Shown piece after piece: positions 5,323-43,610 of a stretch of 45,323 bases of DNA. The notes beneath the pieces were generated by a model. That model was not told where the DNA came from and searched no databases. It saw only the letters and a program-made list of their open reading frames with translations. The position numbers were made by a program, and so were the translations under genes. Numbering within the stretch: the first letter of the stretch is position 1; the number at the start of each line of letters is the position of its first letter. Source of the DNA: Acidilobaceae archaeon (lineage in GTDB: Archaea; Thermoproteota; Thermoprotei_A; Sulfolobales; Acidilobaceae); assembly GCA_027014125.1 (NCBI GenBank), contig JALWEI010000012.1:1-45323 (forward strand), in the 5' to 3' direction.

Positions 5323-6405
5323 CTAGCCTATGGGGATGGGAGCTGTTAGCGCCAGGAGTACCCCGTAGAGTAGTATAGAGGCCGCTCCAGCGGCCCCTAG
5401 GCCCGTCTCCCCCATAGCGGGCCCGGGGTGCCTGCCCCGGGATAGGAAGTATATGAGCATAGCTAGCAGGGCGAACATGAAGAAGGCCGGGTATACGGTC
5501 GACGCGGCTAGGAGGACTAGTATCGTTGCCTGCGATATGGCCCTGTGGGTTGCCTCTCCCACGGCGCTCCTCACTATGTGCCCTCCGTCGAGCATTGCAA
5601 CAGGCATGAGGTTGAGGAAAGTTACTAGGAGGACTATGTAGCTGGCGTAGGCTAGTGGGCTCAGGAGTATTAGCCCGTCGCCGTGTGGAGCATAGATGTC
5701 GGCTAGGGCTAGGAAGAGGGCGGGGGCCACCTGTAGCTGGGCGGCTCCCCCAGCTAGTGCAGAGGGCTCTGTTAGTATGGACGCCTTCATACCGATGATG
5801 GCGAAGGGTATCACCGCTAGGAATCCCGCCAGGGGGCCCATAACGGCCATGAGGGCTAGCGAGCCGGGGGTGGGAGGGAGCCACCTTAGGTTGATCACCG
5901 CGCCTAGTGTCCCCAGGAAGCCTAGCTGGAGGGGAGGGGCTGGTATGAGGTATGGTATGCTGGACGGGACCCTGTAGAGCCTCATTACGAACCAGTGGCC
6001 GAGCTCGTGTATTATCAGGGGGACTAGGAGCCCTAGGAGGTAGCCCCAGGGGCTCCATGCAAACCCCTCACCACGGGGGCCTGGGGCGTTTGCCAGCCAC
6101 TCGCCCGATATGTATACCATAGCGAGCGTCGCCGCGGCGAGTATCGCCCCCTTGGCCAGGGCTGATCCCTTTTCCCTGCTCGTCACCAGCCTTAGGACTA
6201 GGCCGTCGCTGGTGGCTCTCAGTAGGGGTTTACATCCCCTGTCTATCAGCTCCTTGTATAGGCTCACCCTTGCCTCTTCCCCGGCCCTGTGGGGCCGGCC
6301 TAGGAGAACCTCGTAGCCCCAGGGCTGGCCCTTGGCCTCTAGGATCTCGTAGTAGGAGGATACCGCGTCGAGGCAGGGGGCCGCCTGGCCCTGGCTAGGC
6401 TGTAT
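5323..6405 (-). CDS. Site-2-protease-like M50 membrane metalloprotease, probable ATA start
   Basis: Intramembrane zinc metalloprotease. From the GTG at 6267 the protein would be 314 aa; HELGHW (zinc ligands H87, H91 and Glu88 in that numbering) and LNLMPVAMLDGGH with the third ligand Asp227 are clear, among about six hydrophobic segments. However, the frame stays open upstream to 6412 and encodes protein-like sequence (YYEILEAKGQPWGYEVLLGR) that continues the N-terminal domain expected in archaeal M50 proteins. This stretch contains no ATG, GTG or TTG. A strong binding site GGTGATC (6410-6416) lies four bases before an in-frame ATA at 6403-6405, giving 360 aa. The gene would then overlap the rpoK 3' end. 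Function is certain at family level; the start is inference. Confidence 0.85.
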   Translation of the reverse strand: MQPSQGQAAPCLDAVSSYYEILEAKGQPWGYEVLLGRPHRAGEEARVSLYKELIDRGCKPLLRATSDGLVLRLVTSREKGSALAKGAILAAATLAMVYISGEWLANAPGPRGEGFAWSPWGYLLGLLVPLIIHELGHWFVMRLYRVPSSIPYLIPAPPLQLGFLGTLGAVINLRWLPPTPGSLALMAVMGPLAGFLAVIPFAIIGMKASILTEPSALAGGAAQLQVAPALFLALADIYAPHGDGLILLSPLAYASYIVLLVTFLNLMPVAMLDGGHIVRSAVGEATHRAISQATILVLLAASTVYPAFFMFALLAMLIYFLSRGRHPGPAMGETGLGAAGAASILLYGVLLALTAPIPIG

Positions 6406-6715
6406 CTCCGATCACCTTCCTGGTGGCCTCTATTAGGACCTTGAGAGGTATCGACTGGCTGTCTCCTCCCTCCGTGTACCTGTATACTGATACCGGGAGG
6501 ACCCCCTCGTCTACCTCGTACCTGGCTATGTCTAGCGTGTTGGTTGAACCCACCTTCTCTATCGGGACCAGTGGGGGGGCTCCATAGTTTAGCTGGAGGA
6601 CCCGCACACCTATGATTCTGGCCCTCTCATACTTTGTCAGGTAAGGGGGCCCTATCCTTATCTCCTTCACCATCCTAGGGTAGACCATGTAGGATTTGTC
6701 TGCCTCTTCTGCCAC
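6395..6715 (-). CDS. rpoK: RNA polymerase subunit K (Rpo6, RPB6/omega homologue)
   Basis: Small core RNA polymerase subunit that helps assemble and stabilise the largest subunit. The conserved segment GPPYLTKYERARIIGVRVLQL followed by GAPPLV is diagnostic (residues about 23-50), and the C-terminus has GVLPVSVYRYTEGG where homologues read GVLPITIRR. The open frame reaches 6799, but GTG at 6713-6715 is a much better start: it has GGGGTG at 6725-6730, nine bases upstream, and a TATA box at 6757-6763 whose predicted transcript start falls just before that site. The resulting 106-aa protein matches the usual size. The second ORF of the transcript is the M50 protease. Confidence 0.93.
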   Translation of the reverse strand: MAEEADKSYMVYPRMVKEIRIGPPYLTKYERARIIGVRVLQLNYGAPPLVPIEKVGSTNTLDIARYEVDEGVLPVSVYRYTEGGDSQSIPLKVLIEATRKVIGDTA

Positions 6716-6755
6716 GCCCCTTGGCACCCCTAGCCGGGCATATATCTCGATTGGA

Positions 6756-6764
6756 CTATATAAG
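6756..6764 (-). promoter_or_regulatory. rpoK TATA box
   Basis: CTTATATAG on the minus strand. The predicted transcription start, about 25-27 bases downstream near 6733-6738, falls just ahead of the GGGGTG ribosome binding site at 6725-6730. This spacing supports GTG 6715 as the rpoK start. Confidence 0.7.
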
Positions 6765-6858
6765 TATAGATACGAGACTTCCCATCCCTCTGTCAACAAT
6801 CACAGTAACATTTTTATATTCCATATGTGTGATTGTTTTCCTCCGCGTCACGTGCAGG

Positions 6859-42386: not shown

Positions 42387-43571
42387 CTATAACAGGTAGA
42401 ATATCAGCCCGTTTTTTCTCCACTTATTCAGGTACCTCTCGAGTATACTATTATCTACTATCCAGGTCTTCGATATATAGTCATAGTTCTGGAACGGGAT
42501 TGTGAAATACTCAACTACGCTCCTACTATTATATATTATCTTGTCTATTATACTGTTACTGCATATGCTACTAACGTAGTTTATAATTGCACTAGCGTAG
42601 GCCCTGGCTACCCCGCTACCCCTCCCTGGGGGCACGTCGAAGCTTATCACGTAGTCCCCGGATTCTGGGTTTACTGCTATGGAGTACGTGTAGAGGTATG
42701 TTAGCATTCTCTGCCCAAGCTTGTCTAGGCAGCCCGCCCTTGCCCTGCCTATTATTATCATTTTCAGGTTGCTCTTGCTTAGCGATATCATCCTGTTGCC
42801 TCTTATTATCGAAGATATGTGTTCGATATGCGTTGTTATATGCTTCATTAGTCTCCTTGTCTTCTTCATCATCCTGAAGTAGCCCTCTAGCTTCTCTTCT
42901 AGGTCTAGCACGTTGTACTCCGCCACGGCTAGACCGAACAGGTCTATCCTGTCCTTGACTATGCTTAGGCCTGTCCTCTGCCTTGTCTTGACTAGCTCAT
43001 TGTAGTCTATGTACCTGGATACTATGGGGTGGTTGTCGTTGACCTCTATTGCCCTTATCGGGTCTAGGGGCGCGTGCTCCATGTAGTAGGTGAACGATGG
43101 TTTCGCTAGCATCGATGTTGATAGTACTTGCTGGTACTCCAGGTTCTGGGAGACCCTGAGCTTGATTATGGTATCCTCTATTATCTCCGCCTCGTCCATT
43201 ATAACTGGGATCCTATACATTATCAGGGACGAGTTTGACGTGTCGTTTATGGCTGCCGCGATCCAGTGCCTGTACGGTAGCTTCTCCGTATCGTGCTTGC
43301 TCAGCCTCCTCCCCTTAAGCTTTACAAGGACTAGTTTGAGGTCGAGGTCTCCTATGTTGAAGTCCGCCCTGAACCTTATGTTGGGGCTTCTCAGCTTCTC
43401 CATGTATCTCAGTATTGTTGATAGTGGTATGTCTAGCTCCCTGGCCATCTGGGAGAAGACGTAGCGGGGATTATTGTACTGTATATAGTCTACTACCCTC
43501 CTTAGCCTGTACTCTGCCAGCATCTTCTGTATCTCTTGCGTGTACCCTAGTAGTTGCTGCTTCTTATCTAT
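42387..43571 (-). CDS. HTH-containing protein with large uncharacterised C-terminal region, probable ATA start
   Basis: From ATG 43523 the protein has 378 aa. Residues about 8-50 form a winged-helix-type HTH (VVDYIQYNNPRYVFSQMARE, LDIPLSTILRYMEKL). The rest, about 300 residues, is not recognisable; it contains a basic helical region (LEGYFRMMKKTRRLMKHITT) and many Tyr and Ile. Codon use is richer in A/T-ending codons than in neighbours. ATG 43523 has no ribosome binding site. The frame runs on to 43587 without ATG, GTG or TTG, and GGTGAG (43578-43583) lies six bases before an in-frame ATA at 43569-43571, suitably behind a TATA box at 43611-43620. I therefore extend to that ATA (394 codons); this is inference. 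Probable transcription regulator. Confidence 0.75.
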   Translation of the reverse strand: MDKKQQLLGYTQEIQKMLAEYRLRRVVDYIQYNNPRYVFSQMARELDIPLSTILRYMEKLRSPNIRFRADFNIGDLDLKLVLVKLKGRRLSKHDTEKLPYRHWIAAAINDTSNSSLIMYRIPVIMDEAEIIEDTIIKLRVSQNLEYQQVLSTSMLAKPSFTYYMEHAPLDPIRAIEVNDNHPIVSRYIDYNELVKTRQRTGLSIVKDRIDLFGLAVAEYNVLDLEEKLEGYFRMMKKTRRLMKHITTHIEHISSIIRGNRMISLSKSNLKMIIIGRARAGCLDKLGQRMLTYLYTYSIAVNPESGDYVISFDVPPGRGSGVARAYASAIINYVSSICSNSIIDKIIYNSRSVVEYFTIPFQNYDYISKTWIVDNSILERYLNKWRKNGLIFYLL

Positions 43572-43610
43572 TACACGCTCACCACTCTATTCTAGTATAG
43601 CTTGTATGCG

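Follow-up and report, generated by a model that had tools for sequence, protein, structure and literature searches.

The M50 (site-2-protease family) intramembrane protease encoded in the window, a stretch of 45,323 nucleotides from contig C12 of a hot-environment archaeon of the Acidilobaceae (genome G000), is probably translated from AUA 6405-6403, by near-cognate initiation driven by a Shine-Dalgarno (SD) sequence, and not from GTG 6267. This reading was built on computed evidence, namely a coding extension upstream of the GTG, its conservation, the presence of SD and ATA in three species, a TTG start in a sister species, a genome-wide association and the overlap with the preceding gene, from which we infer the actual use of AUA, methionine as the first residue and coupling.

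The M50 frame and its start region

The features involved all lie on the minus strand of the window.

5323-6405, minus strand: M50 gene, 360 amino acids from the putative ATA start (Pfam PF02163, E=2e-20; best Foldseek match M. jannaschii S2P 3b4r, E=2e-3, probability 1.00)
6403-6405, minus strand: ATA, putative M50 initiation codon and the only near-AUG codon upstream of the domain (spacing 9; same in genomes G197 and G128; in G188, TTG at the end of rpoK)
6410-6417, minus strand: SD match AGGTGATC, 8 nt of AGGAGGTGATCC (spacing 9 nt; identical in three species)
6412-6414, minus strand: in-frame TGA, upstream end of the M50 frame, overlapping the SD (direct reading)
6265-6267, minus strand: GTG, first in-frame canonical start codon of M50, rejected as start (ATA in G128; falls within helix 43-55 of the modelled domain)
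6268-6405, minus strand: 46 N-terminal codons that a GTG 6267 start would leave out, with a predicted helix and two strands (family alignment; AlphaFold model; third-position substitution excess, p=0.0045)
6395-6799, minus strand: open frame of rpoK, RNA polymerase subunit K (Pfam Rpb6, 2.8e-9; NCBIfam RNA polymerase subunit K, 3.5e-38); the bounds are those of the open reading frame and do not fix the rpoK start
43569-43571, minus strand: ATA proposed as start of a helix-turn-helix (HTH)-like gene at 42387-43586, probably the second case of the original prediction (SD GGTGA, 5 nt, spacing 10; weak)

Direct reading of the M50 frame gives TGA (6414-6412) followed by TCG GAG ATA (6405-6403) CAG CCT, and the originally predicted lack of any ATG, GTG or TTG from this stop down to GTG 6267-6265 is confirmed. 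Thus, 46 codons (6405-6268) precede the GTG, and apart from the ATA no near-AUG codon occurs before the conserved domain. The motif GGTGATC had been placed four bases before this ATA; it does lie there, and the actual match extends to 8 nt (6417-6410). Once aligned, the SD-to-ATA spacing is 9 nt, which equals the peak spacing for canonical starts in the genome, and a G occupies position -3, as in half of the canonical starts. The 7-mer GGTGATC is not rare by itself (9 occurrences in the window, 5.4 expected). Of the 1111 ATA codons located close to gene starts in 1.79 Mb, only that of M50 has an SD match of at least 8 nt at spacing 8-11. These counts cover 1.79 Mb, with 57% GC, of a 1.82-Mb genome; no 16S 3' end was found in this sequence, and the standard anti-SD was assumed, which the SD spacing peak supports. 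RNA folding around the M50 start region displays nothing unusual (z=1.2).

The encoded protein carries the zinc motif HExxH as HELGH, and a second motif (LDGG) is found within NLMPVAMLDGGH. The residues concerned, H133, E134, H137 and L272, D273, G274, G275, are invariant in an alignment of 30 M50 orthologues. An ATA start predicts the N-terminal peptide (M)QPSQGQAAPCLDAVSSYYEILEAK. In an AlphaFold2 model built from orthologue sequences (mean pLDDT 84, pTM 0.85, about 90 over residues 11-70), an alpha-beta-beta-alpha-beta-beta domain precedes the first membrane helix, with predicted elements H5-18, E19-27, E30-38, H43-55, E58-65 and E68-75. GTG 6267 corresponds to residue 47, within the second helix of this modelled domain, so a start there would remove a helix and two strands. 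In the part of the extension not overlapped by rpoK, substitutions between G000 and G128 at codon positions 1, 2 and 3 number 9, 3 and 17, respectively (p=0.0045), and the pattern is that of a translated frame. Orthologues, model and substitutions thus agree with the earlier view of the 46 codons as a protein-like continuation of the N-terminal domain.

Relatives, overlap with rpoK and competing readings

The open frame, the SD and the ATA are the same in the separately assembled genomes G197 (JALUDK, 98%) and G128 (WAKG, 82%), and the string GGAAGGTGATCGGAGATACAGCCTAG is identical in all three. A sequencing error, named in the original prediction as a possible refutation, is therefore unlikely. 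At the position of GTG 6267, G128 has ATA, and no canonical codon occurs in its open frame until residue 55, so GTG 6267 is not a conserved start. In G188 (71%), a fourth member of the genus, the M50 frame carries a TTG, in GGGAGGAAGCTTGGA; this TTG too falls in the terminal part of rpoK, and it is accompanied by GGAGG. These two sequence states point to a likely change, of unproven direction, from a TTG start to a nearby ATA start, together with three extra rpoK bases creating GGTGATC. In a different genus, G181 (locus L004) also encodes an M50 protein without canonical start, GAGGTG standing at spacing 9 before an ATA located just past the rpoK stop.

The alignment of M50 orthologues proposed as a check was carried out with 30 family loci. 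In nearly all of them a canonical start, most commonly TTG, with GTG and ATG also used, is followed by a corresponding N-terminal segment (C..V..YFE....LG.P), so that family orthologues at 45-50% identity carry the extension. Conservation does not stop at 6267 and extends across the 46 codons, with ATA in three species.

The rpoK frame ends with TAG 6397-6395, and the M50 ATA sits in its last codons, with an overlap of 11 nt; the M50 start thus overlaps the stop region of the upstream gene, as is expected by position for translational coupling. The final RpoK residues (VIGDTA, stop) are encoded by the same nucleotides as the SD and ATA, so part of the conservation of SD and ATA may belong to rpoK. 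No synonymous change is found over the last 7 rpoK codons, which, judged from the remainder of rpoK, has a probability of about 0.03. Taken alone, the conservation of SD and ATA would be moderate evidence for an ATA start; the absence of other starts and the SD spacing weigh more.

Three other readings were weighed. GTG 6267 is the first in-frame canonical start, and translation from it would leave the upstream 46 codons untranslated; the ATA found at that site in G128, the family-wide conservation of the N-terminal domain, the coding-type substitutions upstream and a start that would fall mid-helix in the model make this very unlikely. Relative to rpoK, M50 lies in the +1 frame, and with the 11-nt overlap +1 frameshifting from rpoK into M50 would produce an RpoK-M50 fusion. 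Relatives, however, have a separate M50 start with canonical codons, no obvious slippery run is seen, the strong SD at start-codon spacing is left unexplained, and a polymerase subunit would be fused to a membrane protease, all of which renders frameshifting very unlikely. Coupled reinitiation after rpoK termination could also take place at another codon near the stop (CAG, CCT or AGC), the ATA being incidental, and the gene overlap shared by all seven near-cognate starts conserved between congeners (see below) would suit it. Nevertheless, no other near-AUG codon is present there, the ATA stands exactly at the SD spacing and is the same in three species, in relatives the region mostly contains TTG, GTG or ATG, and SD plus ATA recur at M50 in another genus, so that reinitiation elsewhere is improbable.

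The original proposal that translation begins at AUA is supported by the conserved SD and ATA, the family-wide N-terminal domain and the non-conserved GTG 6267. For such initiation, the 8-nt SD AGGUGAUC in the last rpoK codons would position the 30S subunit, with AUA in the P site at the spacing normal for the genome. The ordinary initiator tRNA-Met (CAU) would accept AUA as a near-cognate codon, two positions pairing and the third being mismatched. Ribosomes finishing rpoK would probably supply or assist M50 initiation, raising the local supply, since the M50 start and its SD lie within rpoK. Coupling from rpoK had been offered as a less likely alternative to AUA initiation; it is probably involved, as part of AUA initiation rather than an alternative to it, given that every near-cognate start conserved between congeners overlaps the preceding gene.

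One initiator-like tRNA-Met gene with a CAU anticodon was seen, and no special initiator tRNA with a UAU anticodon was found in the sequence covered. The tRNA-Met(CAU) gene (contig C36, 39211-39463) has a predicted 157-nt intron after the anticodon, and many other tRNA genes of the genome are also predicted to contain introns.

Near-cognate starts across the genome

SD matches of canonical starts in G000 peak at a spacing of 9-10 nt (571 genes, 98 of them with six or more bases). Over all open reading frames, ATA is not enriched after an SD (19/1111, vs 1.9% for other codons), so AUA initiation would be rare in this genome. The signal appears in a set of 50 genes whose coding sequence extends well upstream of any canonical start: in these, 12 of 209 near-AUG codons are preceded by an SD at spacing 9-10, vs 8 of 900 other codons (p=4.6e-5). 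It is found mainly at spacings 8-10, apart from a weaker value at 18-19 (p=0.02). When the SD motif was shuffled 200 times, no shuffle gave a result as extreme as the real motif. Comparison with congeners supports seven near-cognate starts (two ATA, three CTG and two ACG).

C12, 6403-6405, minus strand: ATA of M50, conserved in congeners
C29:55175: ATA, conserved in congeners; ATG in G188
C22:19862 (L054): CTG of an aminotransferase, same codon in four species; the position is ATG in G046 (MFDIYEF)
C22:13246 (L054): CTG, four species; in-frame TAG directly before the CTG in G188
C22:1778: CTG of Trm56, a weaker case
C38:46627 (L121): ACG of an RNase P p30-like gene, conserved SD and ACG, no nearby canonical start; a weaker case
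C20:69931 (L093): ACG of an RNA methyltransferase-like gene, conserved SD and ACG, no nearby canonical start; a weaker case

The claim that the HTH gene and M50 together indicate use of AUA initiation in this organism stands in part. The other conserved near-cognate starts favour it, whereas the HTH-like gene, which has no canonical start before codon 21, is a weak case: its SD has only 5 nt, and in the G128 orthologue an ATG precedes the same ATA by four codons. The ATA at C29:55175 and the CTG codons at C22:19862 and C22:13246, all outside the window, are better second examples.

Other candidates were set aside. The ATA at C30:7231 and the ACG at C35:43919 are not supported by G128, and the ATC at C26:4914 is followed within a few codons by a conserved canonical start. 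In G128, the orthologue (C98, L194) of C35 43877-45313 is interrupted close to its 5' end by several in-frame stops, and the ACG start is unsupported there. In a G128 sample of about 227 kb with 186 assessed genes, a single conserved near-cognate start with SD and without a nearby conserved canonical start was found, that of C29.

Each of the seven starts conserved between congeners falls in the terminal part of the same-strand gene before it, with overlaps of 4-35 nt. Among canonical starts with comparable SDs, 52 of 163 (32%) show such overlap vs 7 of 7 near-cognate ones, a difference (p=5e-4) that is indicative only, the set having been chosen after looking and overlap itself raising apparent conservation between close species. 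Two explanations fit this pattern without being separated by the data: either coupling to the upstream gene lets weaker start codons function, or these codons persist because the coding sequence they overlap blocks their repair. Tentatively, the genus may apply a relaxed start rule, admitting AUA, CUG and ACG besides AUG, GUG and UUG, to a few conserved genes at a strong SD in the end of an overlapping upstream gene, SD strength and coupling replacing codon identity as the main determinants.

Relation to known initiation systems

Proteins of this kind would be truncated or misplaced by gene finders, which permit only ATG, GTG and TTG. The near-cognate cases also form a conserved gene set for testing start-codon policing by aIF1 and aIF2, and whether coupling relaxes it. 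Near-cognate initiation is known in bacteria, as for the AUU of E. coli infC. In Aeropyrum pernix, starts determined by proteomics are 52% TTG, 28% ATG and 20% GTG, as quoted from Yamazaki 2006 in PMC5911459, and a review of archaeal initiation gives only AUG, GUG and UUG as starts (PMC7531240). In Methanosarcina mazei, Ribo-seq assigned CTG starts to 5% of unannotated small ORFs (PMC11456600). The aIF1 of S. solfataricus disfavours non-canonical starts (PMC6237735), which counts against the AUA reading. In the literature searched, no naturally ATA-started archaeal gene was found, and CTG was found in small ORFs only.

For an archaeal protein that is full-length and conserved, an AUA start would thus be an unusual variant of known near-cognate initiation. 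Like the SD-led GUG and UUG initiation of crenarchaea such as A. pernix, it would involve a leadered gene with an SD, a G at -3 and a non-AUG codon presumably read by initiator tRNA-Met, whereas the mismatch at M50 falls on the third codon position. With infC AUU and M. mazei CTG, it shares a near-cognate codon with one mismatch to AUG, but the proteins are here full-length and conserved, the SD is strong, the start overlaps the upstream gene and no autoregulation is evident. As in the translational coupling of overlapping genes, the M50 start stands inside the upstream gene, with an 11-nt overlap; ordinary overlaps use ATG, GTG or TTG, whereas here a near-cognate start goes with the overlap.
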